A stretch of 64,000 nt of DNA from Leadbetterella sp. (GTDB lineage: Bacteria > Bacteroidota > Bacteroidia > Cytophagales > Spirosomataceae), in contig JAHBUH010000019.1 of NCBI GenBank assembly GCA_019638185.1, positions 1 to 64,000 on the forward strand, written 5' to 3'. A program made the translations under genes and the position numbers. Below the pieces are notes generated by a model. The model was not told the origin of the DNA. It saw only the letters and a list, made by a program, of their open reading frames with translations, and made no database searches. This document shows, one piece after another, positions 17,429-34,000 of this stretch (the stretch's first letter is position 1; the number at the start of each line of letters is the position of its first letter).

Positions 17429-19072
17429 ATGAAGAGACGGGACTTTATTCAATGGTCCGGGATGGGCGTAGGCGCCATCCTGGGATCTTCTATTCCTGTA
17501 ATCGGAAGGGCGGTGACTCCGGAGGAGCTGCTGGAGCCTGCCGCTGACAGGGCCCTCAAAAAACGCCTCGCTGATGTGGCGCTGAATGCTGCACGGGCCA
17601 AAGGCGCCACCTATTCCGACGTCCGGATAGGCCGCTACCTGCAGCAATTCCTTTTTACCCGTGAAAAAAATGTACAGAATATTACCAATGCGGAGTCGTA
17701 CGGTGTAGGTATCCGGGTCATCGTTAACGGCACCTGGGGTTTTGCCGCCACCAGCGATGTCACCCCCGATGGTATAGCCCGGTGCGCCGAAACGGCCGTG
17801 GCCATTGCCAAAGCCAACTCCCGCATCCAGACCGAGCCCGTAAACCTGGCTCCTCAGAAAGGTGTAGGTGAGGTGGTCTGGAATACCCCCATCCAAAAGA
17901 ACGCCTTCCAGGTCCCGGTGCAGGAGAAAATAGACCTGCTGCTGAATGTAAACAGCCAGGCCATGCAAAACGGCGCGGCTTTTGTTACTTCTAACCTCTT
18001 CCAGGTGAATGAGCAGAAGTATTTTGCCTCTACGGACGGCTCCTACATTGACCAGGACATTCACCGGATATGGCCTACTTTTACCGTGACCGTCATAGAT
18101 AAGGCCGCCGGGAAATTCAAGACCCGTGACGCCCTCAGTTCCCCCATGGGCATGGGCTATGAATACATGGACGGCCTGGCATCGGAAAAAATCCCCGGCC
18201 CGAACGGCCTGGTGGGCTACCGGAACTCCTACGATATGGTGGAAGACGCCATCCTGGCCGCTAAGCAGTCGAAAGAGAAAGTAACGGCCAAGTCCGTGGA
18301 AGCCGGGAAATATGACCTGGTGCTGGATCCTAACCACCTGGGCCTGACCATCCACGAATCCGTAGGGCACCCTACCGAGCTGGACAGGGTGCTGGGCTAT
18401 GAGGCTAATTACGCCGGAACCAGCTTTGCTACCCTGGATAAATGGCGGTCCAAATCATTCAACTACGGAAGTCCGCTGGTGAATATCGTAGCCGACAAGA
18501 CCCAGCCCCACACCCTGGGCTGCGTGGGGTATGACGATGAGGGCGTTCCGTGTAAACAGTGGGATATCATTAAAAACGGTATCCTGGTGAACTACCAGGC
18601 TACGCGTGACCAGGTGGGCATTCTGGGCGAGAAAGAGTCGCACGGGTGCTGCTATGCCGACGACTGGAGCTCGGTGCAGTTTCAGCGCATGCCTAACGTA
18701 TCCCTCCTGCCCGGTAAGGAGAAGCTGAATGTGAATGACATGATCAAAGGCGTGGAGAAAGGGATCTATATCATTGGGCGGGGGTCTTACTCCATTGACC
18801 AGCAGCGGTATAACTTCCAGTTCGGAGGGCAGCTTTTCTACGAGATCAAAAATGGGCAGATCGCCGGTATGCTGGATGACGTGGCCTACCAGTCCAATAC
18901 CCAGGAATTTTGGAACTCCTGTGCCCAGATCTGCGACAAGGACGATTACCGTACATTCGGGTCGTTTTTTGATGGAAAAGGACAGCCCTCCCAGGTCAGC
19001 GCCGTGTCGCACGGTAGCTCCACTACCCGTTTTAACGGCGTCAATGTTATCAATACCGGACGTAAAATCTAA
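17429..19072 (+). CDS. TldD-type metalloprotease subunit with Tat signal (copy 1)
   Basis: Catalytic subunit of a TldD/TldE-type zinc peptidase. The N-terminus MKRRDFIQWSGMGVGAILG is a twin-arginine signal (RRDFI) followed by a hydrophobic stretch and a likely cleavage after GRA, so the protein should be exported, unlike cytoplasmic E. coli TldD. The zinc motif HESVGH gives His309, Glu310 and His314. The C-terminal GxCGKxGQ block of classical TldD reads GSFFDGKGQPSQ here, lacking the Cys that I recall as the third zinc ligand; other Cys (NSCAQICDK) lie about 20 residues upstream. At 547 aa it is longer than E. coli TldD (about 480). The partner TldE-like gene starts six bases downstream. Copy 2 at 20473 is clearly a tandem paralogue. 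Confidence 0.92.
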   Translation: MKRRDFIQWSGMGVGAILGSSIPVIGRAVTPEELLEPAADRALKKRLADVALNAARAKGATYSDVRIGRYLQQFLFTREKNVQNITNAESYGVGIRVIVNGTWGFAATSDVTPDGIARCAETAVAIAKANSRIQTEPVNLAPQKGVGEVVWNTPIQKNAFQVPVQEKIDLLLNVNSQAMQNGAAFVTSNLFQVNEQKYFASTDGSYIDQDIHRIWPTFTVTVIDKAAGKFKTRDALSSPMGMGYEYMDGLASEKIPGPNGLVGYRNSYDMVEDAILAAKQSKEKVTAKSVEAGKYDLVLDPNHLGLTIHESVGHPTELDRVLGYEANYAGTSFATLDKWRSKSFNYGSPLVNIVADKTQPHTLGCVGYDDEGVPCKQWDIIKNGILVNYQATRDQVGILGEKESHGCCYADDWSSVQFQRMPNVSLLPGKEKLNVNDMIKGVEKGIYIIGRGSYSIDQQRYNFQFGGQLFYEIKNGQIAGMLDDVAYQSNTQEFWNSCAQICDKDDYRTFGSFFDGKGQPSQVSAVSHGSSTTRFNGVNVINTGRKI

Positions 19073-19078
19073 ACGATC

Positions 19079-20398
19079 ATGGCAATTTTAAGCAGAGAAG
19101 AAGCAAAAAAAATCATAGATAAGGTTTTATCGTATGCTAAAGCCGATGAAACCGCAGTAAGTCTGGGCGGCAGTAAAACCGGGAATATCCGTTATGCGCG
19201 GAATACGGTTTCCACCAGTGGGGAATCCACTAACCTGGCGCTGGCCGTAACCTCGGTGTTCGGCAAGCGATCCGGAACGGCCACCATCAATGAATTTGAT
19301 GATGAGTCGCTGGAAAAAACCGTACGGCGGGCCGAGGAGATCGCCCGTCTGGCGCCTGAAAATCCGGAATATGTACCCATGCTGGGCCCGCAGCAGTATA
19401 CGGAGGTAAAAGAAACCTATGCTGATGCCACCGCCGCCATTAACCCGGAATACCGGGCCAAGGCCGCCCTGGACAGCATTGAGATCTGTAAAAAGAAAAA
19501 CCTGACTTCCGCCGGCTACCTGGAAGACACCACGGGCTTTAACGCCATGGGAAACAGCAAGGGGCTCTTTGCCTATAACCGCTCCACGTCAGTAGACTTC
19601 TCCGTTACCGTGAGAACAGAAGACGGGCTGGGATCCGGCTATGCCATCCAGGATTATAACGATGCCCGGAAACTGAACGCCGCCGCTTCTACCGAGGTGG
19701 CCGCCCAGAAGGCCCTGGCCTCTAAAGGCGCCCTGGCGCTGGAGCCCGGGAAATATACCGTGATCCTGGAACCCGTGGCCGCCGCTGACCTCATTCAGAA
19801 CATGATGCGCAGCCTGGATGCCCGGAATGCCGATGAAGGCCGTAGTTTCCTCAGCAAAAAAGGCGGTGGTACCCGCCTGGGGGAAAAGCTGTTTGACGAA
19901 CGCGTTACCATCTATTCCGACCCCACAAACCCGGAAATCCCGCAATCGGGCTTCGTGATGGACGGCCGGCCCCGGGAGAAAACCACCTGGATAGAAAAGG
20001 GAGTGGTGAAAAATATGGCTTACTCGCGTTTCTGGGCGCAGAAACAGGGCGTAAAAGCGCTTCCACCGCCGTTTGGCTTTATCATGGAGGGCGGTAACGA
20101 ATCACTGGCTGACCTCATCAAAGGAACCAAAAAAGGGATCCTGGTGACCCGCTTCTGGTACATCCGGGCGGTAGATCCTCAGACCCTGCTGTATACGGGC
20201 CTTACCCGTGACGGAACTTTTTATATTGAGAATGGTAAAATCAAGCACCCCATCAAGAACTTCCGTTTTAACGAAAGCCCGGTGATCATGCTGAATAATG
20301 TGGAGGCTATGGGTAAGCCGGTGCGGGTAAATGGCAGCCTGATTCCGCCGCTGAAGATCCGGGACTTCACGTTCTCCAGCCTGTCAGATGCGGTGTAA
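19079..20398 (+). CDS. TldE/PmbA-type subunit (copy 1)
   Basis: Non-catalytic partner of TldD. It has the shared family N-terminus (LSYAKADETAVSLGGSKTGNIRYARN, AVTSVFGKRSGTATINEFDDESL), the mid-domain GKYTVILEPVAAADLIQNMM and the C-terminal block TGLTRDGTFYIENGKIKHPIKNFRFNESP. There is no HExxxH motif, as expected for the TldE/PmbA branch. At 439 aa it is family length. Its N-terminus MAILSREEAKKIID is cytoplasmic in character with no Sec or Tat signal, although its TldD partner is predicted to be exported. Co-folding and piggy-back Tat export, or a missed signal, would resolve this. Translation is probably coupled to the gene before it. Confidence 0.9.
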   Translation: MAILSREEAKKIIDKVLSYAKADETAVSLGGSKTGNIRYARNTVSTSGESTNLALAVTSVFGKRSGTATINEFDDESLEKTVRRAEEIARLAPENPEYVPMLGPQQYTEVKETYADATAAINPEYRAKAALDSIEICKKKNLTSAGYLEDTTGFNAMGNSKGLFAYNRSTSVDFSVTVRTEDGLGSGYAIQDYNDARKLNAAASTEVAAQKALASKGALALEPGKYTVILEPVAAADLIQNMMRSLDARNADEGRSFLSKKGGGTRLGEKLFDERVTIYSDPTNPEIPQSGFVMDGRPREKTTWIEKGVVKNMAYSRFWAQKQGVKALPPPFGFIMEGGNESLADLIKGTKKGILVTRFWYIRAVDPQTLLYTGLTRDGTFYIENGKIKHPIKNFRFNESPVIMLNNVEAMGKPVRVNGSLIPPLKIRDFTFSSLSDAV

Positions 20399-20472
20399 AC
20401 TCTCCGCATATAGTGATCAGTATATGAAAAAGCATACTTAATTTATACCCGGACTTATTAAACAAAATTACA

Positions 20473-22107
20473 TTGAAAAGAAGAGATTTTATCCAACTAT
20501 CAGGACTGGGCATCGGCGGAATGATGATGATCCCCGTTCTGGGCCACGCCACCACTCCTGAATCCTTCCTGGACTCCGGAATGGATGTAGCCGTAAAAAA
20601 GCGCCTGGCCGATGCCGCATTAAATGCTGCAAAATCCAAGGGCGCCACCTATACCGATGTACGCATCGGGCGCTACCTGAACCAGTATGTGATCACCCGT
20701 GAAAATAAGGTGCAGAACATCGTTAATACGGAATCATACGGTGTAGGCGTGCGGGTGATTGCCGACGGCTGCTGGGGTTTTGCGGCCATCGTGGATGCCA
20801 AAACCGAACGCGATACCGCTAAAGCGGCTGAAGAAGCGGTGGCCATTGCCAAGGCAAACGCCCGGCTCATGAAAAGCCCGGTGATCCTGGCGCCGCAAAA
20901 CGGCTACGGCGAGGTAAGCTGGAAGGCACCCATTAAGCGGAATGCTTTTGAAGTGCCTATCCAGGAAAAGGTAGACCTGCTGCTGGGCGTAAACGATGCC
21001 GCCATGAAAAACGGGGCTAATTACGTAAACTCCATCCTGTTTATGGTGAATGAGCAGAAATATTTTGCCTCTTCTGACGGCTCCTACATTGACCAGGATA
21101 TCCACCGGATGTGGCCCATTTTTGCGGTGACCTGTATAGATCCCAAAACCGGGAAATTTGAGACCCGGCAGTCGCTCAGCGCCCCCATGGGCATGGGTTA
21201 TGATTATCTGCAGGTAAACCCTGCCGATAAAGTAACGGGTATAACCACCCGCTATAACATGGGGTACGACATGCTGGAAGACGTAACCGCTGCCGCGCAG
21301 CAGGCCAAGGAGAAGCTCACGGCGAAATCCGTGGAAGCCGGGAAATATGACCTGGTGCTGGATCCATCCCACCTCTGGCTGACCATTCACGAGTCTGTAG
21401 GCCACCCGCTGGAGCTGGACCGCGTGCTGGGTTACGAGGCTAACTTTGCCGGTACCTCCTTTGCTACGCTGGATAAGCTGAAATCGGGCAACTTTAACTA
21501 CGGAAGTCCCCAGGTAACGCTCTTTGCCGATAAAACCCGGGAGGGTTCATTGGGTGCGGTAGGCTGGGACGACGAAGGCGTGAAGACCAAACGTTGGGAC
21601 CTGGTAAAAGACGGTACGCTGGTGAACTACCAGGCTATCCGTGACCAGGTGCATATCCTGGGCGAAAAAGAGTCGCACGGGTGCTGCTACGCCGACAGCT
21701 GGAGCTCAGTGCAGTTCCAGCGTATGCCGAACGTCTCCCTGGCGCCGGGCAAAGCACCACTCTCGGTAAAAGAGATGATCAAAGACGTTAAAAAAGGTAT
21801 TTATATTATCGGAGACGGTTCATTCTCCATTGACCAGCAGCGGTATAACTTCCAGTTTGGCGGACAGCTGTTTTACGAGATCAAAGACGGTGAGATCACA
21901 GGCATGCTGAAAGACGTGGCTTACCAGTCTAACACCCAGGAATTCTGGAATTCATGTGTGCAGGTGTGTGATGAGAAAGACTTTCGCCTGGGCGGATCTT
22001 TCTTTGACGGTAAAGGGCAGCCTTCGCAGTCCAGCGCCGTATCTCACGGAAGTTCCACCGCGCGTTTTAATGGGGTCAATGTTATTAACACCGCTCGTAA
22101 AATTTAA
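20473..22107 (+). CDS. TldD-type metalloprotease subunit with Tat signal (copy 2)
   Basis: Tandem paralogue of the TldD at 17429, with long identical stretches. It starts with TTG at 20473 (MKRRDFIQLSGLGIGGMM), since the Tat signal begins there and no in-frame ATG precedes it. Signal cleavage probably follows GHA. The zinc motif HESVGH gives His306, Glu307 and His311. As in copy 1, the C-terminal Cys of GxCGKxGQ is absent (GSFFDGKGQPSQ). The divergence (for example WGFAAIVDAKTERDT versus WGFAATSDVTPDGIA) shows an old rather than recent duplication. The 74-base gap after the preceding TldE gene may contain a promoter, but none is clear. Confidence 0.91.
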   Translation: MKRRDFIQLSGLGIGGMMMIPVLGHATTPESFLDSGMDVAVKKRLADAALNAAKSKGATYTDVRIGRYLNQYVITRENKVQNIVNTESYGVGVRVIADGCWGFAAIVDAKTERDTAKAAEEAVAIAKANARLMKSPVILAPQNGYGEVSWKAPIKRNAFEVPIQEKVDLLLGVNDAAMKNGANYVNSILFMVNEQKYFASSDGSYIDQDIHRMWPIFAVTCIDPKTGKFETRQSLSAPMGMGYDYLQVNPADKVTGITTRYNMGYDMLEDVTAAAQQAKEKLTAKSVEAGKYDLVLDPSHLWLTIHESVGHPLELDRVLGYEANFAGTSFATLDKLKSGNFNYGSPQVTLFADKTREGSLGAVGWDDEGVKTKRWDLVKDGTLVNYQAIRDQVHILGEKESHGCCYADSWSSVQFQRMPNVSLAPGKAPLSVKEMIKDVKKGIYIIGDGSFSIDQQRYNFQFGGQLFYEIKDGEITGMLKDVAYQSNTQEFWNSCVQVCDEKDFRLGGSFFDGKGQPSQSSAVSHGSSTARFNGVNVINTARKI

Positions 22108-22112
22108 ATATC

Positions 22113-23450
22113 ATGTCAGTAATATTATCAGAAGCAGAAGCCAAGGCCCTGCTCCAAAAAGTTATAAAGCTCTCTAAAGCGGACGAATGTGAAGCTAACC
22201 TGCTGGGAGAGATCCGCGGAAACATCCGTTATGCCCGGAACGAAGTGTCCACCAGCGGCAGCCTGATCAATAAAAACCTGGTGGTGCAGTCGGCCTTCGG
22301 AAAGAAAGTGGGCGTGGCCACCATCGATGAATTTGACGATGCCTCCCTGGAAAAAGTAGTGCGCCGGGCCGAAGAACTGGCCCGCCTGGCACCGGAAAAC
22401 CCCGAATACATGGGCGTGCTGGAACCTCAGCAATATGGCAAGTCGAACGGCTTTTTTGAATCTACCGCAAAGATCACCCCGGAGGTACGGGCCGAAGCCG
22501 TGGCCAAAAGCCTGGCGCTTTCGGGCCAGAACCAGCTTACTTCTGCGGGATTCCTGGAAAACCGGGCGGGCTTTTCAGCCATGATGAACTCCAAGGGGCT
22601 GTTTGCCTACTATCCCAGTACCGGGGTGAACTTCTCGCTTACCGTACGTACCGATGACGGTAAGGGCTCCGGTTATGTGATCCGGGGATATAACGACTTC
22701 TCCCGGCTGGATACCGAAGCTGCCAGCCGTATTGCCGTGCAGAAAGCCCGCGGGTCCGTGGGCGCCAAGGCCCTGGAGCCGGGAAAATATACCGTTATCC
22801 TGGAACCTACGGCCGCAGCCGTACTGCTGGAAAGCCTCTATTATGATATGGACGCCCGGGGGGCCGATGAGGGCCGGTCTTCCTTCAGCAAGCCGGGCGG
22901 TAAAACCCGGCTGGGTGAGAAGATCGTGGATGAGCGCGTGAACATCTATTCGGATCCTGCACACCCCGAGCTGCCCGCCGCACCGTGGGCAGGTGACGGC
23001 CAGCCCCAGAAGCGGGTGTCGTGGATAGAGAAAGGCGTGGTGAAAAACCTGGCTTACTCCCGGTATTGGGCGCAGCAGAAAGGCGTTAAGCCCCTGCCGT
23101 ATCCCGGGAATATGATCATGGAAGGCGGCACTGCCAGCCTGGAAGAAATGATCAAAAATACAAAGAAAGGCATCCTGGTGACCAAGCTGTGGTATATCCG
23201 GCCGGTAGATCCGCAAACCCTGCTGATGACCGGCCTTACCCGTGACGGTACGTTTTATATTGAAGACGGAAAGATCAAACATCCAATCAAGAATTTCCGT
23301 TTTAATGAAAGCCCTATCATCATGCTGAATAACCTCGAAACCCTCGGTAAGTCAGAGCGGGTGGTCAGCACGGAGTCGGATCAGAGCTATATGGTGCCGC
23401 CTATGAAAATCAGGGAGTTTACTTTCTCTTCCCTGTCAGACGCGGTATAA
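22113..23450 (+). CDS. TldE/PmbA-type subunit (copy 2)
   Basis: Paralogue of the 19079 gene, starting five bases after TldD copy 2. Family blocks include NLLGEIRGNIRYARNEVSTSG, GVATIDEFDDASLEKVVRRAEELARLAPENPEY, PGKYTVILEPTAAAVLLESL and TGLTRDGTFYIEDGKIKHPIKNFRFNESP. It has no HExxxH and no export signal. Compared with copy 1 the end contains a few extra residues (STESDQSYMVPPMKIREF). It presumably forms a specific complex with TldD copy 2, giving two distinct heterodimers; cross-pairing cannot be excluded. The next gene begins 18 bases on. Confidence 0.9.
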   Translation: MSVILSEAEAKALLQKVIKLSKADECEANLLGEIRGNIRYARNEVSTSGSLINKNLVVQSAFGKKVGVATIDEFDDASLEKVVRRAEELARLAPENPEYMGVLEPQQYGKSNGFFESTAKITPEVRAEAVAKSLALSGQNQLTSAGFLENRAGFSAMMNSKGLFAYYPSTGVNFSLTVRTDDGKGSGYVIRGYNDFSRLDTEAASRIAVQKARGSVGAKALEPGKYTVILEPTAAAVLLESLYYDMDARGADEGRSSFSKPGGKTRLGEKIVDERVNIYSDPAHPELPAAPWAGDGQPQKRVSWIEKGVVKNLAYSRYWAQQKGVKPLPYPGNMIMEGGTASLEEMIKNTKKGILVTKLWYIRPVDPQTLLMTGLTRDGTFYIEDGKIKHPIKNFRFNESPIIMLNNLETLGKSERVVSTESDQSYMVPPMKIREFTFSSLSDAV

Positions 23451-23468
23451 AGTAAACAGAATTGACTT

Positions 23469-24083
23469 TTGAAGCCTTTCGTTTTTACCAGAATACAATA
23501 CACATCAGGGAATTGGGATACGGATCAGCGTATGCCTTCCAATCTCCTGCATTCCCTGGTAGAATACACCACCATCCCCATTGATGAGAAGGAGCGGGTG
23601 GTGCAGCTGAGTAGTAACGACATCTTCAAAAGTCAATTCTGCTACCTGAGCGGCCATAAGCTGGTGGAGTTTTCGTCCGAAGAGCGTGATCATTTCCGGC
23701 GGTATGTCCTGAACGGGGGATTTGTGTTTGTGGACGATTGTAACCACGATATCGACGGGCTTTTTGCGAAGTCATTCGAGCAGGAAATGGCCCGGACCTT
23801 CGGGCAGGGTGCCCTGCATAAGATACCCAATAACCACCCGCTCTATACCTGTTTTTTTGAGTTTGAGGGGCCGCCTACCACCAGCTTTGAGCTGAATGGC
23901 TGGGGCGATGACCTGGTGCACGACTACCTGAAGGCTATAGAAGTAAACGGCCGGATAGGGGTGCTGTACAGCAACAAAGATTACGGCTGCGAGTGGGATT
24001 ACGATTTTAGAAACAAACGTTGGCTCATGGAAGATAACACAAAATTCGGGGTCAATATCATCAAATACGCATTAACGGTTTGA
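23469..24083 (+). CDS. DUF4159 domain protein
   Basis: 204 aa, beginning at TTG 23469 (MKPFVFTRIQYTSGNWDTDQR). It shows the DUF4159 pattern: FTRIQYTSG...W near the N-terminus, LSSNDIFKSQFCYLSGHKLVEFS, and GGFVFVDDCNHDIDGLFAKSFEQEM, followed by HPLYTCFFEF and GRIGVLYSNKDYGCEWDY. The fold resembles class-I glutamine-amidotransferase-like domains without a catalytic Cys nucleophile at the expected site. There is no signal peptide, so it is probably cytoplasmic here. DUF4159 proteins are often encoded next to MoxR/DUF58 genes, as seen here. The stop codon overlaps the MoxR start, indicating translational coupling. Confidence 0.83.
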   Translation: MKPFVFTRIQYTSGNWDTDQRMPSNLLHSLVEYTTIPIDEKERVVQLSSNDIFKSQFCYLSGHKLVEFSSEERDHFRRYVLNGGFVFVDDCNHDIDGLFAKSFEQEMARTFGQGALHKIPNNHPLYTCFFEFEGPPTTSFELNGWGDDLVHDYLKAIEVNGRIGVLYSNKDYGCEWDYDFRNKRWLMEDNTKFGVNIIKYALTV

Positions 24084-25051
24084 AAACACTGGAAGAATAT
24101 AAAGGGCTGGTGGCCCGGCTGCCCGCACTGAAAAAAGAGATTGCGAAGGTAATTGTAGGGCAGGAAGAGGCGGTAGACGAGATCATGATTTCCCTGCTGG
24201 CGGGCGGGCACTGCCTGCTGGAGGGCGTACCCGGGCTGGCTAAAACCCTCATGGTGAAGACCCTGGCCGATGCCCTGGATATGAAATTTAAACGCATCCA
24301 GTTCACTCCTGATCTCATGCCGGGCGATATTATCGGTACGGAGGTGATGGAAGAAGAAGCCGGACGGAAATTCTTCCGGTTTACCCAGGGGCCGGTCTTT
24401 GCCAATATCGTACTGGCAGATGAGATTAACCGTACGCCGCCCAAAACGCAGTCGGCTCTGCTCGAAGCCATGCAGGAGTATAAAGTGACTTATTCCGGCA
24501 CTACGCATGCCCTGCCGTCACCGTTTTTTATTATTGCTACGCAAAACCCCATTGAACAGGCGGGTACCTATCCGCTGCCGGAGGCCCAGTTGGACCGCTT
24601 CCTGCTGTACATCCGGCTGGGTTACCCTTCCGAGCAGGAAGAGCTACTGGTACTGAAAAATACTACGGGAGTAAAGAAAGAAAATGTCCAAAACGTACTG
24701 TCAGGGGAAGAGATCCTGGAGCTGCAGCAGCTGACCCGGCAGGTGCATATCAGCGATGAGCTGATTGAGAAAATAAGTGCCCTGGTGCGGTCTACAAGGC
24801 CTGAGGGCAGCCCGTCGGCTTTTGTAAAGCAGTGGTGCGACTGGGGTGCCGGCCCCCGTGCCGGCCAGGCGCTGGTCTTGTGTTCCAAGGCCCGGGCCGT
24901 ACTGAACGGGCGTTTTTCCGTGATCCCGGAAGACATCACCGCGCTGGCTTTTCCCGTGCTGCGGCACCGGATAGCCCTGAACTTTAAGGCGGAAGCAGAG
25001 GGTATTACCGCTGACCGCGTGATAGAGGAGCTGACCCATGGACGCCGCTGA
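24080..25051 (+). CDS. MoxR-family AAA+ ATPase
   Basis: Cytoplasmic AAA+ chaperone-like ATPase. The Walker A GVPGLAKT is at residues 49-56, Walker B is IVLADEIN, followed by RTPPKTQSALLEAMQE and sensor 1 FIIATQNPIEQAGTYPLPEAQLDRF, all diagnostic of MoxR. The start is TTG 24080, overlapping the DUF4159 stop by four bases; no ATG lies near enough to retain the N-terminus. MoxR proteins act with vWA-domain partners to mature or activate enzyme complexes, often inserting metals or subunits. Here the vWA partner is the DUF58 gene overlapping its end by 14 bases. Confidence 0.95.
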   Translation: MKTLEEYKGLVARLPALKKEIAKVIVGQEEAVDEIMISLLAGGHCLLEGVPGLAKTLMVKTLADALDMKFKRIQFTPDLMPGDIIGTEVMEEEAGRKFFRFTQGPVFANIVLADEINRTPPKTQSALLEAMQEYKVTYSGTTHALPSPFFIIATQNPIEQAGTYPLPEAQLDRFLLYIRLGYPSEQEELLVLKNTTGVKKENVQNVLSGEEILELQQLTRQVHISDELIEKISALVRSTRPEGSPSAFVKQWCDWGAGPRAGQALVLCSKARAVLNGRFSVIPEDITALAFPVLRHRIALNFKAEAEGITADRVIEELTHGRR

Positions 25052-25907
25052 ACTGATCCGGCTGAATAACCTTCAACTGGCCGCCCGGGTGGTCAGTGAC
25101 CGCCTTTTGCTGGGCGTTCATCATAGCCGGCGTACGGGTGTGGGTACCGAGTTTGAACAATACCGCCCTTACTTCCCCGGCGATGACCTCCGGCGGGTAG
25201 ACTGGAAACTATACGCCCGTTCCGGGAAATACCTGGTGAAAGAATCTGCTACCGAAAGCCACCTGCACATCCGGATGATCCTGGACCTTTCCGGTTCCAT
25301 GAATTATGCGGAGACGGGCGTGAGCCGCCTGGCCTACAGTAAAATCCTGCTGGCTTCCCTGGCTTACATGGGCTACCGCCAAAGTGACCCCCTGAGTTTG
25401 TATACCTTGAAAGAGGAGGGCCTGGAGCTGCAGGTAAAAGAGGGGCGGAACTCCTTTTACCGTATCCTCTATCAGCTGGAGAATGCCGTGGCAGAAGGAA
25501 AGAGTATGCCGGAAACGGCGGCCTTTCCGGAATTCCAATACCGGCAAAAAGAGCTGCTCATCCTGGTATCTGACCTCCTGCAGGCCGGGGAAGAATGGAT
25601 AAACATGATTAAAAAAGCAGCTTCACCCCACCGGCAGATCCTGATCTTCCAGGTGCTGGGTGATCAGGAGCTGGACTTTAACCTGGAAGGGTTTTACCGT
25701 TTCAAAGACCTGGAAACCGGGGCAGAAGTGGAGCTGGAAGCGGAGAGTATCCGGAAACCCTTCCGGGCGGCCATTAACGGCTACCTGGCCGGGCTGGAAG
25801 AAGACCTGCGCCTACCGGACGTTCACCTGGTACGGGCCTCGCTCCACAGGCCGCTGGCCGGGGTGATTGCCGAAGGACTAAAAACCCTGAGCCGATGGAA
25901 TTTCTGA
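25038..25907 (+). CDS. DUF58 protein with von Willebrand A-like MIDAS
   Basis: 289 aa. The DUF58 signature is present in the N-terminal half (HSRRTGVGTEFEQYRPYFPGDDLRRVDWKLYARSGKYLVKE), and a MIDAS metal site DLSGS starts at Asp83, then LLILVSDLL later. It contains no transmembrane segment, so it is cytoplasmic and the expected direct partner of the MoxR ATPase. The start ATG 25038 lies inside the MoxR gene. Its last 13 bases overlap the next gene. The family is usually described as part of aerotolerance (Bat)-like operons, but here it sits with TldD/E and DUF4159. Confidence 0.93.
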   Translation: MDAAELIRLNNLQLAARVVSDRLLLGVHHSRRTGVGTEFEQYRPYFPGDDLRRVDWKLYARSGKYLVKESATESHLHIRMILDLSGSMNYAETGVSRLAYSKILLASLAYMGYRQSDPLSLYTLKEEGLELQVKEGRNSFYRILYQLENAVAEGKSMPETAAFPEFQYRQKELLILVSDLLQAGEEWINMIKKAASPHRQILIFQVLGDQELDFNLEGFYRFKDLETGAEVELEAESIRKPFRAAINGYLAGLEEDLRLPDVHLVRASLHRPLAGVIAEGLKTLSRWNF

Positions 25908-27145
25908 ACCCGGGCATCCTCTGGGGAGCGTTAGCTATCAGCCTTCCTGTCATCCTCCATTTCTGGCATCAGAAAAGGGGGAAGGAGCTGCCGTGGGCGG
26001 CTAATCGCTGGCTCAGCGGTCTGGTACTGCAAAAATCGCGCGGGATACGCCTGGAAAACCTTCTTTTACTGATCCTGCGCTGCCTGCTGCTGCTTTTACT
26101 GGTGTTCTGGTTAAGTGAGCCCCTGTTTAAGCGCCTGACCGGGAAACAGGAAAAAGTACACTGGATACAGCCGGACAAGGCTGTAGTGGAAAATTTCAGG
26201 TTTGAGCTGGAAGAGGCAGAAAAAAGAGGTGAAAAGCGGTTCTGGTTTAACGGAGAGCCGGTTACCGCACTGAGTATTCTGCCCGAAGATACGGGCGCAG
26301 ACCTCCAGTTGGGCATTAATAAAGTAAGAACGGAGGGTCAGGCGGAAATTTACCTTTCCGGCACCGATGATTTTACCCGTTTCTCCAGGGTCTATCTGCC
26401 GGAACCATACCGGCTTCACCCGCTTTCTTCCCGTTTCGGGGAACCGGGCGGTGGGGAAGCGCTTTCTGCAGACAGGCTGATGGCCGGGAACGACAACCCG
26501 TCCGGGGGGCGGGTTCGCGCAAAAGGTGCGCAGGGTGAAGGAGACACCCCGTCAGCGGGAAAGGTATATACAAGAGATGAGCCAGGTGTAAAAGGAGATG
26601 ATAAGAGCAGTATGTCAAAGGGTACTGCTCTAACAGAAGTACGGGTCTCGCAGATCGGAGGATCTGCTTCCCGGCCGCTGAAAGTTTTACTGGAAAGTGA
26701 GAAAGCGAGTGTTTCTGCTGCGCTGAAAGCCATTACCGATGTTTACGGGCTGCATTTTGAAGTAGATTCGCAGCGTCAGGCCGGCCGGCGGTATGATCTG
26801 GTCTTCAGCCATGAGCCGGACTCGTCAGCGGAGTTGAGCGTGGTTTCCGCTGCTGCCGCCCTGCACGCAAACCGGATGACAGCAGCTCACCGCGTGATCT
26901 GGTTTAATGAGCGGCTGACGGCAGAAACCTCCGATGCTGTTTTTAACGGTCAGCTCCCGGAGATCCTGTTGGAAGCCCTGGTAAAAGATAGACCGGCGCT
27001 GGTGCTCAGTGATCGCCAGCTTCGGGATAAATTTGCGGTAAGGCCTCCGCGTAGCATAGAAAGTTCGTTCCATTCCGTTATACTGGTACTGTTTATCCTG
27101 GCGCTGGGCGCCGAACGGTGGTTCGCAATCCATAAAAATTCATGA
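25895..27145 (+). CDS. BatA N-terminal-domain membrane protein
   Basis: The N-terminus MEFLNPGILWGALAISLPVILHFWHQKRGKELPW is the typical BatA N-terminal domain with its first transmembrane helix; a second helix is LLLLILRCLLLLLLVFWLS (about residues 49-67). A periplasmic region of about 320 residues follows, with one C-terminal helix (SVILVLFILALGAERWF). Within it, about 185-250 is a low-complexity Gly/Lys/Ser/Pro stretch that looks like an insertion. No MIDAS is visible, so it is not a vWA protein itself. It overlaps the DUF58 gene by 13 bases and the next gene by the ATGA motif. Probably the membrane anchor of the MoxR/DUF58 complex; function inferred from context only. Confidence 0.8.
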   Translation: MEFLNPGILWGALAISLPVILHFWHQKRGKELPWAANRWLSGLVLQKSRGIRLENLLLLILRCLLLLLLVFWLSEPLFKRLTGKQEKVHWIQPDKAVVENFRFELEEAEKRGEKRFWFNGEPVTALSILPEDTGADLQLGINKVRTEGQAEIYLSGTDDFTRFSRVYLPEPYRLHPLSSRFGEPGGGEALSADRLMAGNDNPSGGRVRAKGAQGEGDTPSAGKVYTRDEPGVKGDDKSSMSKGTALTEVRVSQIGGSASRPLKVLLESEKASVSAALKAITDVYGLHFEVDSQRQAGRRYDLVFSHEPDSSAELSVVSAAAALHANRMTAAHRVIWFNERLTAETSDAVFNGQLPEILLEALVKDRPALVLSDRQLRDKFAVRPPRSIESSFHSVILVLFILALGAERWFAIHKNS

Positions 27146-29358
27146 ACCTGGTTAACCGCATCATATCGTCAGTACATCGGCAGCTCCACATTTCGGCGTG
27201 GATGCGCTGCCTGCTGGCCGGGCTGTCAGCGGGCCTGGTGGCGCAGGCCTTCGGGCAGTGGCTGCCTCTGAGCCTGGCGGTCGGTATGGCGGGTTTTTCA
27301 GTTTGCGCTTTCTTCCTGAAGCCCTGGGCTGACCGCCGGCCGGAAGCGATCCGCATCCTGCATGAACGCCTCTCGGATGCAGAATACAGCCTGGACCTGG
27401 CAGGCATCGCACAGCCCAATGTGGCGGAGCAGCTTCAACTGGAGCGGCTGGCGCAGCAGTTGGAAAATACAGGCGCTCCCCGGGTATGGGATAAGCGGCT
27501 GGGAGGATTTCTGCTGGCGTTTGTACTGGGGATGGCCGTGTATGCTGCCTGGCCCGCCTGGAAGAAGAAAGCCACGCTCACACAGCCACCTTATTCGGAA
27601 AAAGAAGTGCATACCGCACCTGCCAAGCCCCGTATCCCGGCTTTCCGGGAGGCTGAAGTGCGCATTATGCCGCCAGCCTATACGGGCCTTCCGGAAAAAA
27701 ACAGCCGCGATCTGAACATTTCGTCCATTGCGGGTACGGTATTGCAGTGGCGCATGCGGTTTTCAGACGCAGACGGCCTGAAAGTTACCCTGAATAACAG
27801 CCGGGGCGAGGAACTGGCCTTCACCCGGAAAGGAGAGGTTTTTGAATATGCCGATCGCCTCCGGTCTTCCGGCCTTTACGGCATACGGGCTTACTGGAAA
27901 GATTCACTCATCTACCAGTCGGATTACTACCGCCTGGAAGCCCTGATCGATGCCCCGCCCCGCATAGAGCCTGCCTCCCGCGATTTGTACCGTTTTCATT
28001 TTCTGAAGGATCCGAAAACCCTGGCAGTAGCGGCAAAAATAGCTGACGATTTCCTGGTAAAGCAGGTCTACCTGGTGGCCACCCTGGCACGGGGCTCAGG
28101 TGAGAACGTGAAGTTCAGAGAAGTGAAATTCCCGGTCAGCAGCCAGGCCTTTAAAACAGGAAATGTGTCTAAAACCATCGACCTGAAAGCGCTTAACTTC
28201 GCTCCCGGCGATGAACTTTACTACTATTGGGCAGCCGTGGATAACAAGGCCCCCGAACCGAACTTCAGTAAATCAGACACTTACTTCCTGGTGTATAAAG
28301 ATACGGCTGCGCTGAATGAGAGTGAGTTGGCCACCATGGCGGTCAATATCCTTCCAGAGTACTTCCGGAGCCAGCGTCAGATCATTATTGATACGGAAAA
28401 GCTGATTGCCAAACGAAACAAACAGGGCAAACAGGAATTTAACTCGGCGTCTAATGAGATCGGTTTTGATCAGAAAGCGCTCCGGATCCGTTACGGGCAA
28501 TACCTGGGCGAGGAGTATGAAACTTCTATCGGCGGGCACGGGCATGCCGACAGCAATGACCCGCTGGAAGGCTTTTCACACCGCCACGACAGCCAGGAGG
28601 AAGGCCACCACGATCACAGCCTGAAAATGTTTTCCCCGCAGAATGTACGCTCAGCGGAAGAGCATGACCACGATCACGGCAAAAGTACCCCGGCACCTGA
28701 AAATCCTACAGAGGCGCTGGCGGCGCTTCTGGAGGCCTATGTGCACTCGCATGATAACGCCGAAGCCAATACATTCTACGAGCAGTCTACCCGCAGCATC
28801 CTGAAAACCGCCCTTGAAAATATGTGGCAGTCGGAGCTGCATTTAAGACTCTACGAGCCGGAAAAGGCGCTCCCCTACGAAAATAAGGCCCTGGAACTGC
28901 TGAAAGAAGTGCAGCAGAAGGCCCGTACGTTCATTGCCAAAACCAGCTATGACCCGCCGCCGATCAAGGAAAAGGAGCTGCGAATGAAAGGCGAGCTGAA
29001 AAAGTTTAACCGTACATTCAGCACGGAAAAAGAACTAAGCCGGGAGCAGATCAGCGCCCTGGCCGGACAGGTGGCCGGCTATGCGGCAGGAGATACCCCG
29101 CTTTCACCGTCACAGAAGCAGACGGTGGCGGTATTGAGCCGGCAGATCAGCGGGATTGTGGTAAATGCCGGCCTGGATAAGTGGAAACTGCTCACCCTGC
29201 TTCAGAAGCTGCTGAATGATCAGCGGCTGTCGGCCTCCGAACAGCTTACTCTGAAAAACGGGCTGTTCACCCTGAGCGCCGTGCAGAAAAATGCAGAGCC
29301 TCCCACCGGCATCAGCGATAAAAGATTGGAAAAAGCATTCTGGAAAAACCTGTTGTAA
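27142..29358 (+). CDS. DUF4175-like large inner-membrane protein with His-rich segment
   Basis: 738 aa. Two N-terminal hydrophobic segments (CLLAGLSAGLVAQAFGQWL then LSLAVGMAGFSVCAFFL) and a third (GFLLAFVLGMAVYAAWPAW, about 115-133) anchor a large periplasmic part. It includes beta-rich repeats (EVRIMPPAYTGLP, LQWRMRFSDADGLKVTLNN) and a later helical region. Residues near 470-515 form a very His/Asp/Glu-rich stretch (GHGHADSND, GFSHRHDSQEEGHHDH, EEHDHDHG), a plausible metal-binding patch. Overall it resembles DUF4175-type proteins found beside MoxR/DUF58 genes. It overlaps the previous gene by ATGA, so it is coupled. The family assignment is moderate; the His-rich insert is directly seen. 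Confidence 0.65.
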   Translation: MNLVNRIISSVHRQLHISAWMRCLLAGLSAGLVAQAFGQWLPLSLAVGMAGFSVCAFFLKPWADRRPEAIRILHERLSDAEYSLDLAGIAQPNVAEQLQLERLAQQLENTGAPRVWDKRLGGFLLAFVLGMAVYAAWPAWKKKATLTQPPYSEKEVHTAPAKPRIPAFREAEVRIMPPAYTGLPEKNSRDLNISSIAGTVLQWRMRFSDADGLKVTLNNSRGEELAFTRKGEVFEYADRLRSSGLYGIRAYWKDSLIYQSDYYRLEALIDAPPRIEPASRDLYRFHFLKDPKTLAVAAKIADDFLVKQVYLVATLARGSGENVKFREVKFPVSSQAFKTGNVSKTIDLKALNFAPGDELYYYWAAVDNKAPEPNFSKSDTYFLVYKDTAALNESELATMAVNILPEYFRSQRQIIIDTEKLIAKRNKQGKQEFNSASNEIGFDQKALRIRYGQYLGEEYETSIGGHGHADSNDPLEGFSHRHDSQEEGHHDHSLKMFSPQNVRSAEEHDHDHGKSTPAPENPTEALAALLEAYVHSHDNAEANTFYEQSTRSILKTALENMWQSELHLRLYEPEKALPYENKALELLKEVQQKARTFIAKTSYDPPPIKEKELRMKGELKKFNRTFSTEKELSREQISALAGQVAGYAAGDTPLSPSQKQTVAVLSRQISGIVVNAGLDKWKLLTLLQKLLNDQRLSASEQLTLKNGLFTLSAVQKNAEPPTGISDKRLEKAFWKNLL

Positions 29359-29362
29359 ATTA

Positions 29363-30988
29363 ATGATATTGGCCTTACTGATTATGGAACCCCTTCTCTG
29401 CCGGATCCTCTCCGGTTTCCTGGTGGTAGTGGGCATCTTCACTATCCGGAAACTGCTGCGGTCTCCGGCCCTCAGTGTACGCCAGCGAAACGTGAAGATC
29501 GGGTTGAATGCCCTGCTGATGGTGCTGGCCATCCTGTTCCTGCTTGTACCCGGCCTCCCGCATCAGCAGGACCGGGAAGCACTGCTGGTTTATGACACCG
29601 GTATTCCTTCCGCAGTAACAGATTCCGTACGGGCGGCCTGGAAAATTAAACGTTCGGTTTCCGCTAAAACCTTCAACCGGAAATTCCGGGAATACAGCGG
29701 TCAGCGTTTCGTGTTCCTGGGGCAGGAGGTACATCCCCGCCTGCTGAGTAACCTGGCGGGGAAGGAAGTACAGTGGGTCCCGTATTTTGCTCCCGGGGTT
29801 TTGCAGGAGGTGGCCTGGGAAGGTATTTTACGAAAAGGGGAGCGGCAAACCGTATCCGGGAAGATCTACCTGTCCCGGCCGGGAAAAATAAAACTGGTGT
29901 ACGGAGATAAGGTATTGGACAGCCTCTCCCTTGTAGCCGGCTTCGGCGCTTTCCGCCTTTCTTTCCCGGTTTTTGCCGAAGGCCGGAACGTGATCCCCCT
30001 GGAAACAGGCGCGCAGCCTTTGCAGAACATAGCTTTTTATGCGCAGCCCGTGCGGCCTCTGGTTATCAGCATGATCCTGGATAATCCTGATTTTGAAAGC
30101 CGTATCCTGGCCGAGTGGCTGGGTGCGCAGGAGCACCAGGTGGAAATTTCCACCCCGGTGGCCAGCTCGGTTTTATACGAAAGCCGTATCAATAAAACGG
30201 CTGCAAAACGGGCCCCTGACCTGGTGATCGCCACCCCGGCCCGCGCCACGGACAGCCGGGTGAAAAAAGCGTTAGCCGAGGGTAGGAGTGTGCTTTTCCT
30301 GGGTTTAGGAGAGGTGACTGATGCACTTTCCCGGATAAACCGCGCCACGGGTACCTCTTTCTCGGCCCGGAGAGTCACGGCCCATGAAAATCTTCCGCTC
30401 AGAAATGGGCTCACTGCCCTGCCTTACCAGCTGAATCCCCGGCCTAACCAGCGGCAGCTGGGCAGCTGGCCGGTAAGCTTTCAGAAAAACGGGGCTAAGG
30501 TGGCGGTAAGCCTGCTGAACGAGACTTTCCCGGCCCGTTTAAGCGGTGATACGCTGACCTACAGTGAAATATGGACGGAGATCACCACCGGGCTTTGTGA
30601 TTCAGACAGTTTAAGGACCCGGGTACAGGCGCCGGTGTTTAAAGATGTGCCGGTACAGTTCAGCCTGCATACCCCCGAAACCGCCGTATGGCCGGACCAG
30701 GATACGCTTTACCTGCGGCCTTCACCCGTTAACCCGGCTAAAAAGATCGGAGACTACACCTTTACCACTACCGGCTGGAACACCCTGAAGCCGCTGGGCG
30801 AAATCTACGTGGAAGACTCCACGGCCTTCGCTGCAGCAGCCCGGTGGAAAAACTGGGTGAAGGCCAATAACACGCTCCTGGAAACGGGAGCTTCACCGGC
30901 CATTGGCCCGCTTCCTGCCACCTTATGGTTCTGGGCCTTCTTTCTTTGCCTGGCCGCCCTGTGGGTAGAGGCAAAATTCAGATATTAA
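29363..30988 (+). CDS. Membrane protein of unknown function, last gene of the MoxR/TldD cluster
   Basis: Start at ATG 29363, five bases after the previous stop; an ATG 21 bases further on is an alternative, and the longer frame would overlap the upstream gene. Two N-terminal helices (LCRILSGFLVVVGIFTI, IGLNALLMVLAILFLLVPGL) and one C-terminal helix (LPATLWFWAFFLCLAALWVEAKF) flank a ~450-residue soluble region. That region has alternating helix/strand segments (ALLVYDTGIP, FVFLGQEVHPRLLSNL, APDLVIATPARATDSRVKKAL, RSVLFLGLGEVTDALSRI) suggestive of a glutamine-amidotransferase-like fold, as in many Bat-operon membrane proteins. No catalytic residues are recognised. It ends the tightly packed gene run; a 109-base gap follows. 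Confidence 0.7.
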   Translation: MILALLIMEPLLCRILSGFLVVVGIFTIRKLLRSPALSVRQRNVKIGLNALLMVLAILFLLVPGLPHQQDREALLVYDTGIPSAVTDSVRAAWKIKRSVSAKTFNRKFREYSGQRFVFLGQEVHPRLLSNLAGKEVQWVPYFAPGVLQEVAWEGILRKGERQTVSGKIYLSRPGKIKLVYGDKVLDSLSLVAGFGAFRLSFPVFAEGRNVIPLETGAQPLQNIAFYAQPVRPLVISMILDNPDFESRILAEWLGAQEHQVEISTPVASSVLYESRINKTAAKRAPDLVIATPARATDSRVKKALAEGRSVLFLGLGEVTDALSRINRATGTSFSARRVTAHENLPLRNGLTALPYQLNPRPNQRQLGSWPVSFQKNGAKVAVSLLNETFPARLSGDTLTYSEIWTEITTGLCDSDSLRTRVQAPVFKDVPVQFSLHTPETAVWPDQDTLYLRPSPVNPAKKIGDYTFTTTGWNTLKPLGEIYVEDSTAFAAAARWKNWVKANNTLLETGASPAIGPLPATLWFWAFFLCLAALWVEAKFRY

Positions 30989-31097: not shown

Positions 31098-34000
31098 ATG
31101 AAATTTAATAACAGGTTTACCGTGCTGGTCATGGGTATATCTCTGTTAATCTGTGGTGTATTAGGCCATGAATATCCGGGAAAAAAGACTCATGATGCTG
31201 TCTTGCAGCAGAGCTACGACCGAGAAATCGCCGTGGTCAGGACAGAGCATGCCAGGATCAGTAAGCTGATCAATGCCGGGAGAACTGTATCTTTTCAGGA
31301 ACTGAGCGTCCCTACCACTTACCCTTATTTTATTTTTGCCAATGGGAAAATGATCTACTGGTCATGCAATAATAATATTCCCAGGTACCAGAGAGATGTA
31401 GCCGGTGCGCCGGCAGAAAGGCTTTTCGAGGTAGATGGTGACCCTTCCGTGCTGGTCAGGTCTTCTCTTGCTAACCGCTATGACATTGTGAGTGTGGTAG
31501 ATCTGCTCAGGGATAAGAACTATACCACTAACTTCCGCCTCCCGGATTTCAATTCAGCCATTTTCTTTTTGAAGCCGGAGAAGGTTTCGGCGAACCCCTT
31601 TCCGGGCGCCCTTGAAGTCCGCGCACCGGATGGCCGCCCCATCTTTTATACACAGATCAGGGAGACTCTGCAGCACATGAGCTTTAAAACCTCTCCCATC
31701 AGTATAATCCTGATTGTTCTGGGCATGCTGATGGTGTGGAATACCATCTATATGCAATCTATAAAGCTGTCTAACCGGCACCAATACCTGACTGCCGGGG
31801 TGCTCATGGGGTTTTCTTTCCTGGTGCTGCGGCTGCTGATGCGCTATTTTAACATCCCGTGGATATTCTTCCCGAATAAGCTGATCGATGTGGTCTACGG
31901 AAACCTGTTTATTGATACGCTTTGTGCGCTGATCATTCTGACCAAGTTTTCCCTGGCCCAATACAGGGCTCTCTTATATATTAATATCGAGGGGCTTAGG
32001 CCTTTTATGCGGAATGTCCTGTCTGTCCTGTGTGTGCTGTTTATGTTTGTGCTGGGCCGTGCGGTTTGGTGGCTGATTGATCATACCTACCAGGAGAGCC
32101 TGATTGAAAATCATTATTCGGTAAGTTTTTACCTGAGCAATGTTAAAGATACCATGTATGTGTATCTTTTCATCCTGCTTGGGGTCTACTTCTTAAGTAC
32201 GCATTCGGTGGCCAATGTGTATAAGCGGCTTCAGCCGGAATACCGCAAAGGCACCTTCTTCTGGGGTTTGGGTACCCTGACCGGTATGGCCCTTACCTGG
32301 TGGCTGAATTGGGGCATGATCATTGCCAGCAGCAGCCTTTTTCTCCTGGTGGTTTATCTTTTACGCCTGCCCCGGTATTTTTACCGCCTGCGCTCCTTTA
32401 CCTATGTGTACTATATCATCGGGGCTTTTGCATATACGCTTATCCTGTTTTATGTTTTGTTTCAAAAGGATCAGCAACGGAGCCTGCGGGAAAAAGAGAA
32501 TTTTGCGGAACGCTACCTGAACGGCAAAGATCAGCGCCTGGAGAGGCAGATCTACCAGATGAGCGCCATGTTCCGGAAGTCGGGTTTATTTAACCAGCTT
32601 CTGGAAGGAAAAGCCACCGTTCCTGAAGTGGAAGAAGGAGTTAAGGAGAGCCTATATAACAGCTTCCTGGATCATTTTTTAGTGACATTTGAGGTTTTTG
32701 ACTCTAGCGGCAGGGAACTTACCCCGCATAAAAACCATAAGTTAAACGACTTCCGGGCGCAAACGCTGAAGGCTTCCTACCCCACAGAATACCCGAACCT
32801 TTACCTCACCCGTAGTTCGGAAGAAACTTCGTACTATACCCTGTATTACGAAGTAAGCGGCCCGGGAACCCCACCAGGCACCGTACTCTTCCGCCTTTAT
32901 CCTAACCGGAGCGGCAACCTGAACCTGAAAACCCTGCTGCAGATGAAGCGGGTAGTGCATAATCCGTTTACCCGCTATTACAGCTACGGGGTTTTTGATT
33001 CCAGCGGAAACCTGGTCTACCAGTATGGAAACTACAATTATAACCGGCTGTTTAATACCGATGTGGCCAATAAACTGGGTGTTTTTCAGAAAGAGGCCAT
33101 GCATAAAGGATACTCGCACTTTGCCCGGAAGGGTGACGGCGATAAGATCATTGTGGTATCGGAAAAGAAGGAGTTTTATAAAGATATGCTGGCTAACTTC
33201 TCCTTCCTTTTCTTCGTTTCGCTCATCGGGGTGATGGGGCTGCTGATCTTTATGGGCTTTTTTAACGACTTTAAGCGCTACCAGATGAACCTGTCAGGCA
33301 AGATCCAGCTCTATCTGAACGGTGCCTTCCTGCTGCCGCTGACCATCATCATGATCATAGGTGCGGTGATCATAAAAAATATGTTTTCCGACATCCGGGA
33401 TGAATCCATGCTGAGCACCTCCCTGAATATTTCCGAAGTGCTCAATATTTACGGGCAGAATTATGATTCCGGGAAATTCACCAGGAGAGACCTCCGCAAT
33501 AACCTGGATAACCTGGCCAGGAGCTCTTCCGTAGATATTAACCTCTATGATCTGAACGGCACCTTGTTTTACTCATCTTCCCTGCCTTATCAGAACCTGG
33601 AAAACCCGCTATATATCAATCCCAAGGCTTACTCCACCATCCGGGATGAGGGCGCATCTGTCATTCTACTGGATGATTTCCAGGAGAAGATCAACTTCAA
33701 GACGGCTTTTATACCGGTGAAGGGGCTCTCCAATAACCTGACCTGTATAGCGGGGATTAATTATATTGATGCACAAACGGCGGTGCAATCGTGGACCAGG
33801 CAGATCTGGCAAACCCTGCTTATCGCTTTCCTGATCATTTTCTTCCTGTTGTACACCTTTTCTTTTGTGTCAAGTAAGCGGCTTACCGAGCCGCTGAAGC
33901 TGATTGCGGATAAGATCAAGTCGGTGAACTTTCACGAGCGCAACAAAGAGATCGTCTGGGAGGCCAAAGACGAGATCGGCCTGCTCACCGGCGAATATAA

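Follow-up and report, generated by a model that had tools for sequence, protein, structure and literature searches.

Evidence for a conserved union of Tat-type TldD/TldE proteases with a DUF4159-MoxR-DUF58-BatA membrane module in Bacteroidota

The window, which is the whole stretch of 64,000 nucleotides of Leadbetterella sp. DNA that we analyzed, contains a run of ten genes (17429 to 30988), all encoded in the same direction on the forward strand. Their order is TldD-TldE-TldD-TldE-DUF4159-MoxR-DUF58-BatA-like-DUF4175-like, followed by a gene (ORF10) for a protein with two transmembrane segments and a GATase1-like domain. The original prediction had described a one-directional run with gaps of 74 bases or less, and every gene lies where it had been placed. 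The gaps among the first five genes are 6, 74, 5, and 18 bases, and the neighbors downstream overlap. Pfam matches identify TldD/PmbA in four of the genes, as well as DUF4159, the AAA_3 domain of MoxR, DUF58, and BatA. Beyond the run, at 31098, there is a gene for a histidine-kinase-like protein of 1221 amino acids, which we left out of the unit because it is missing from the 25 most recurrent neighbor groups at the loci of relatives.

All four of the protease-family genes have the three PmbA_TldD domains (1st, 2nd, and 3rd) above the gathering cut-off. TldD1 (17429..19072) has a Tat-like N-terminus (MKRRDFIQ...) and the zinc motif HESVGH, and TldE1 (19079..20398) is its non-catalytic partner, in which no signal peptide was seen. 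TldD2 (20473..22107), which starts with TTG, is a second Tat-like TldD with 71% identity to TldD1, and TldE2 (22113..23450) is a second TldE without a signal and with 63% identity to TldE1. HExxGH is present in all 141 distinct TldD that we compared, while HExxxH is absent from all 123 distinct TldE. Two cysteines near the C-terminus of TldD are candidates for the third metal ligand: all 145 readable rows (five of them repeats) have C498, and 136 have C502; the alignment with the 5nj5 profile ends before these cysteines. TldD1 is a relative of chain A of 5nj5, which is E. coli TldD, and the best PDB relatives of TldE1 are PmbA-family chains. TldD1 scores below the cut-offs of the NCBIfam equivalogs for TldD/PmbA (142.5 bits versus 635, and 79.7 versus 513), and by these scores the window's TldD represents a divergent subfamily outside the named equivalogs.

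The fifth gene (23469..24083) encodes a DUF4159 protein of what we call type 2, with a GATase1-like fold and no signal in the window; it is strongly conserved (DDCNHDID...). Next are a MoxR AAA+ ATPase (24080..25051; AAA_3, E = 3e-65) with Walker A and B motifs, which is presumably cytoplasmic, and a vWA-like DUF58 protein (25038..25907) with a DxSxS motif and no transmembrane segment by hydropathy. An AAA_3 ATPase with Walker motifs adjoins a DxSxS vWA-like protein, as in other MoxR-vWA pairs. Of 76 distinct MoxR orthologues, all have Walker A and 72 fit the Walker B pattern, and 65 of 67 distinct DUF58 orthologues have DxSxS; the PDB relative of MoxR is 2r44. The BatA-like membrane protein (25895..27145) matches PF07584 (E = 7.2e-16), as do all 15 of its aligned orthologues, and hydropathy indicates two N-terminal transmembrane segments, a large loop, and one C-terminal segment. 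ORF9 (27142..29358) is a membrane protein with His-rich segments and, in the alignment of its orthologues, an invariant His. The original prediction called ORF9 DUF4175-like; DUF4175 has no match in the window protein itself, but 6 of 16 orthologues do match (best E = 5.9e-21). ORF10 (29363..30988) has two N-terminal transmembrane segments, a beta-sandwich, a GATase1-like domain, and a C-terminal transmembrane segment. Its longest frame starts at 29291, within ORF9, but the in-frame ATG codons at 29363 and 29384 (located from the translation) are likelier starts. On hydropathy only, the large domains of the BatA-like protein, ORF9, and ORF10 are predicted to lie outside.

We compared the locus with the best 80 loci of at least 595 relatives, which were gathered by means of a TldD alignment only. 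Of the 80 loci, 67 have DUF4159, and in all 67 the preceding cluster gene is TldE. After DUF4159, the order MoxR, DUF58, BatA, ORF9, ORF10 is kept in 67 of 67 for as far as the fetched DNA extends (ORF10 is reached in 36), with unrelated ORFs between some of the cluster genes. Among the 13 loci without DUF4159, seven have less than 1 kb past the last Tld gene and one has 2.7 kb. The other five (L104, L107, L116, L147, and L159) have at least 3.5 kb, from which DUF4159 is absent, so in these it is not adjacent. When we searched the entire genomes of these 13 loci and of L149, type-2 DUF4159 was found in 13 of the 14; it was not found in L143, whose genome is 2.0 Mb. The two paralogous protease pairs highlighted by the original prediction are real in the window but are not essential to the arrangement: the loci have one, two, three, or four TldD ORFs in 48, 22, 9, and 1 cases, respectively (lower bounds where the locus is cut). 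One TldD/TldE pair looks like the basic form. In trees, TldD1 and TldD2 fall into separate clades that are common to other Spirosomaceae (support 0.96 and 0.56), as do TldE1 and TldE2 (0.82 and 0.72), so the duplication of the pair looks old, with uneven support.

The tie extends to the presence or absence of the genes. Of the 101 genomes that we surveyed in the window's family, 64 have type-2 DUF4159 together with TldD and 36 have neither; the one split genome has TldD alone and is 66% complete (Fisher's exact test, P = 1e-26, which ignores relatedness). Because five genera hold both states, the two genes seem to have been gained or lost together repeatedly. In a sample of 148 genomes from the phylum, DUF4159 of any type occurs in 109 and TldD in 38. 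With the window's DUF4159 as the query, the copies split into those of 13 genomes, with at least 346 bits, and all others, with at most 84 bits. These 13 genomes hold type-2 DUF4159 (72–84% identity, the window itself aside), and Tat-type TldD accompanies it in all 13. We found no case of type-2 DUF4159 without TldD in the 101 and 148 genomes searched. The reverse case exists: G004 has Tat-type TldD/E and no type-2 DUF4159, which counts against a coupled machine. In another four genomes (G133, G137, G125, and G079), the stretches that we fetched contain TldD/E and DUF4159 but none of DUF58, BatA, ORF9, and ORF10, and the membrane block is thus not universal.

Overall, these comparisons contradict the picture in which TldD/E is mostly found alone and the MoxR cluster elsewhere, under which the adjacency would have been put down to chance. 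Because the union is conserved, chance adjacency is excluded, and the data strongly support TldD/E with DUF4159-MoxR-DUF58-BatA-DUF4175 as a real evolutionary unit that is inherited together. Since the order, or at least the company, of the genes is kept in nearly all of the sampled carriers of the enzyme, the protease and the MoxR module probably cooperate in the cell envelope.

In at least 52 of the 64 genomes, no more than 10 kb separates TldE from DUF4159; in six, the nearest listed TldE is farther off on the same contig (more than 100 kb in five of them, and up to 610 kb), and in six it is on a different contig. We examined 8 of these 12 genomes, and the DUF4159-MoxR-DUF58-BatA-ORF9-ORF10 block was intact in seven; in the eighth (G178), DUF4159 was by itself in 19 kb. 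TldD/E and DUF4159 therefore co-occur even where they are unlinked. In G133, DUF4159 adjoins both TldD/E and MoxR, and the remaining membrane genes are not found close by; the DUF4159 genes of G125 and G079 are apart from both TldD/E and the MoxR block. DUF4159 may thus be the link between the halves, but the evidence is mixed. Comparisons of the DUF4159 profile with ORF10 and of ORF10 with BatA were both insignificant, which counts against a coupled machine. DUF4159 has a Tat-like start of its own in five distant relatives, and the type-1 paralogue has a Sec-like N-terminus in three loci (as judged by eye); both observations count in favor of a coupled machine.

The Tat pathway exports folded proteins. 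The original prediction considered both TldD and TldE to be Tat-exported; a Tat-like motif is present in TldD but not in TldE, which like DUF4159 is signal-less in the window. Both of the window's TldD begin with [ML]KRRDF, and 140 of the 141 distinct TldD start with R[RK]x[FW], the remaining one beginning at a contig end; this pattern was widened after a narrower first version gave 97 of 121. After the motif comes a mildly hydrophobic segment, whose 14 residues include no K, R, D, or E in 138 of 146 rows. In TldE, a Tat-like motif is absent from all 123 distinct sequences (113 checked by pattern and 10 from printed sequences). With TIGR01409 (cut-off 16.7), TldD1 is above the cut-off at 17.6 bits and TldD2 is below it at 13.9. 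Five of the ten N-termini that we scored pass (TldD1, the TldD of two relatives, and the DUF4159 of two relatives), and there was no match for TldE1 (the control), for the TldD of two other relatives, or for the DUF4159 of one. The low score of TldD2 and the three unmatched N-termini from relatives count against the export proposal. TatC is present in the window's genome, but it has no discriminating power, being found in 147 of 148 genomes.

We sampled 14 genomes with Tat-type TldD. In all 14, every TldD-family gene that was found lies in the loci that we read, and all 26 of these TldD carry the Tat-like motif; no other TldD-family gene was found in these genomes at E = 0.001. Because all of the TldD carry the motif, TldE would be without a cytoplasmic TldD partner. 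In E. coli, activity requires both subunits (PMC5810440), and so the simplest answer is that TldE hitchhikes through Tat on TldD. From these motifs and counts, export of TldD via Tat is likely, and hitchhiking of TldE is plausible.

We tentatively favor, with somewhat less than even confidence, a machine in which a TldD/E protease is exported via Tat, with TldE and DUF4159 carried along by TldD, and is coupled to an inner-membrane module that is powered by MoxR and deals with unfolded peptides of the envelope. The gene unit, the co-inheritance, the catalytic residues, and the Tat-like motifs are supported by sequence and the folds by models, and a coupled machine is plausible. TldD would fold in the cytoplasm into the usual heterodimer with TldE, and the complex would exit through the Tat pathway on the signal of TldD alone; TldE would hitchhike without a signal, as would DUF4159 in most lineages. 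Outside, DUF4159 might dock the protease on a complex in the inner membrane, which the BatA-like, DUF4175-like, and ORF10 proteins would form with their large domains facing the periplasm. From the cytoplasm, MoxR and DUF58 would act on this complex (we infer the direction), spending ATP to assemble or gate it. Gating would let unfolded peptides reach the closed protease chamber, and peptides and damaged envelope chains, as the presumed substrates, would be cleared or trimmed. A partner that controls access makes sense because E. coli TldD/E is a closed chamber that is thought to admit unfolded chains via a narrow channel (PMC5810440). In a bolder form, which we consider doubtful, a cytoplasmic MoxR-DUF58 motor would act via the BatA, DUF4175, and GATase-like proteins to drive the unfolding of envelope chains and their feeding into an exported, self-compartmentalized TldD/E, a three-partner Tat hitchhiker with DUF4159 as the adaptor. 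The periplasm is not known to contain ATP, and ATP-dependent proteolysis there, if true, would be a new kind of system.

Alternatively, MoxR and DUF58 could act before export, by loading metal into or assembling TldD, TldE, and DUF4159 in the cytoplasm; the completed enzyme would afterwards be exported by Tat, and the membrane proteins would couple its assembly to the Tat gate. Metalloenzymes are matured by other MoxR-vWA pairs, Tat substrates are folded, TldD has a metal motif, and the ORF9 orthologues share their invariant His, all of which would fit; also, CoxD is needed for the metal cluster of CO dehydrogenase (PMC3893208). We nevertheless think this possibility unlikely, given that the large domains of BatA, ORF9, and ORF10 are predicted to be outside and that alphaproteobacteria and Gemmatirosa keep the MoxR block with no TldD in the 16.7–18.8 kb that we read. 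Recombinant E. coli TldD/E also contains its metal (PMC5810440), although MoxR proteins occur in E. coli as well. It is more doubtful still that the genes form a co-regulated envelope-stress operon in which the protease and the MoxR module act side by side with no joint machine. Such an operon could account for the separation of the two halves in some genomes and for the MoxR-DUF58-[BatA-DUF4159] operon that occurs without an adjoining TldD, but not readily for strict co-presence even when unlinked, or for type-2 DUF4159 never occurring without TldD in the 101 and 148 genomes.

There is only a slim chance that TldD is exported alone as a homodimer while TldE and DUF4159 remain inside with MoxR and DUF58 for some other task. 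TldE and most type-2 DUF4159 are indeed signal-less, TldD copies outnumber TldE copies in 6 of the 14 sampled genomes, and homodimerization has been claimed for Sulfolobus TldD (as discussed in PMC5810440). However, the requirement for both subunits in E. coli, the lack of any other TldD in all 14 genomes, and the Tat-like starts on DUF4159 in five relatives argue otherwise. The known role of TldD/E in microcin B17 (PMC5810440) and its link to PQQ supply in Gluconobacter (PMC8602642) raise the idea that the enzyme strips leaders from exported precursors in the maturation and export of a RiPP or PQQ-like peptide. We give this the lowest probability: no precursor, modifying enzyme, or transporter of at least 90 amino acids recurs widely at the loci, and the unit is broadly conserved in the phylum without a partner cluster. 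Because no additional gene family (ORFs of at least 90 amino acids) recurs beyond 17 of 101 loci, and the top group is a broad histidine-kinase-like cluster, RiPP-like maturation is not favored.

TldD/E and MoxR-DUF58-BatA modules are both widespread, and the cellular role of neither is settled. The strict tie between them in genomes, together with an exported protease, gives each a testable partner and a place. The tie may also connect the envelope and peptide-medium defects of a rhizobial MoxR operon (see below) to a concrete enzyme activity. Export of TldE and DUF4159 on the signal of TldD, if true, would be a large natural case of Tat hitchhiking by a protease.

The protein families and the alphaproteobacterial module are already known; in our literature search, we found no paper that describes the union of TldD/E with a DUF4159-MoxR-DUF58 module. 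Compared to E. coli TldD/TldE (PmbA), the window's enzymes share the three-domain families, the catalytic and non-catalytic subunits, and the HExxxH motif, but they differ in the N-terminal Tat-like extension, the duplicated pairs, the linkage to MoxR-DUF58, and scores far below the equivalog cut-offs. Elsewhere, tld genes are often near lon (PMC5810440). Hoch_4089 of Haliangium ochraceum (PDB 4i66) is also among the closest known proteins, and its title names no function.

The Bacteroides aerotolerance (Bat) operon comprises BatA to BatE along with MoxR and DUF58. It shares MoxR, DUF58, and the BatA N-terminal domain with the window, but the window has DUF4159, the DUF4175-like gene, and TldD/E in place of BatB–E; that domain is the sole Bat match, and the BatB–E families were not found among the ten window proteins. 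The other BatA gene found in the window's genome is on another contig. A plasmid of Gemmatirosa kalamazoonensis, from another phylum, has a weak DUF4159 (only 22.7 bits), MoxR, DUF58, BatA, and an ORF9-like gene (62.2 bits) in the same order as in the window, and no TldD in the 18.8 kb that we read.

In alphaproteobacteria, the operon is MoxR-DUF58-[BatA-DUF4159 fusion], an order that we saw in Sinorhizobium (L216). A Methylobacterium locus (L217) has the same three genes plus one with a hydrophobic start (by eye), which has a weak GATase1_like match below Pfam's cut-off and aligns with the ORF10 alignment in hhalign at a probability of 16.6% (E = 0.0015). These operons differ from the window in that their BatA protein carries DUF4159 as a C-terminal domain, where the window has a separate DUF4159 protein next to TldD/E, in that no TldD is in the stretches read, and in that the window inserts a DUF4175-like gene. 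Four predicted transmembrane segments in the fusion put DUF4159 on the side of the large loop, which counts in favor of a coupled machine. Vanderlinde and colleagues reportedly described, in 2011, the RL3499-RL3502 operon of Rhizobium leguminosarum as MoxR, DUF58, and two membrane proteins, and the gene order together with this gene content suggests that the S. meliloti operon (L216) is probably of the same kind. RL3499 is reported to be important for membrane integrity and morphology (PMC3893208), and insertions in RL3499 or RL3500 are scored as neutral on minimal mannitol medium but as growth-defective on tryptone-yeast medium (PMC5118466). The window too has MoxR, DUF58, BatA, DUF4159, and a GATase1-like membrane protein, and by analogy the peptide-medium defect may be a physiological clue to what the window's module does.

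In 16 of the 148 Bacteroidota genomes sampled, tatC and a type-1 DUF4159 gene, a paralogue of the window-like, type-2 copies that co-occur with Tat-type TldD, are separated by at most about 4.4 kb (G003, G008, G013, G018, G022, G030, G050, G058, G073, G081, G085, G104, G112, G123, G135, and G147; loci L219–L226 represent eight of these). The pairing was spotted by eye and the distances were then computed; types were assigned by score against the window protein. In several loci, genes that we recognised by eye as rpiB-like and glyA-like lie between the two. This proximity is possibly a second link between DUF4159 and Tat export, or possibly just a housekeeping neighbourhood.

The phylum may also contain a second, independent exported pair of TldD-like proteins. 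Adjacent TldD-like matches were found at L194:8188–11592, and adjoining double matches to PF19289 occur in nine genomes (G105, G101, G109, G059, G136, G027, G144, G086, and G043). The frames with adjacent matches are about 560–650 amino acids long, except in G086, which has one frame of 1,153 amino acids. By eye, both L194 genes begin with Sec-like signals.

Within the cluster itself, ORF9 (window 27142–29358) and its orthologues align with invariant histidine and histidine-rich loops in common, which could bind metal. ORFs recognised by eye as putative exported peptidases, M3-like and S41-like, lie inside the cluster at L088:13112–15235 and L120:14309–16603, each in a single relative. About 110 bases 3' of the operon, the window encodes a 1,221-amino-acid membrane protein (31098–34763) whose C-terminus looks, by eye, like a histidine kinase; among the relatives' loci, we saw no recurrence of this gene with the operon.

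Outside Bacteroidota, a stretch with 43% identity to residues 1–105 of TldD1, the first TldD of the operon, is present on five Xanthomonas plasmids, among them one of Xanthomonas hortorum (L201:4001–4294). No annotated gene is listed under this stretch, which hints that Tat-type TldD extends beyond the phylum. A Corynebacterium crudilactis plasmid carries a solitary DUF4159 gene (L202:5977–6594; 26% identity to the window copy) among plasmid resistance genes, with dihydrofolate reductase adjoining. On a plasmid of Gemmatirosa kalamazoonensis, from another phylum, a run that lacks TldD (L218:4832–15935) comprises a weak DUF4159 match and MoxR, DUF58, BatA, and ORF9-like genes, in the same order as in the window.
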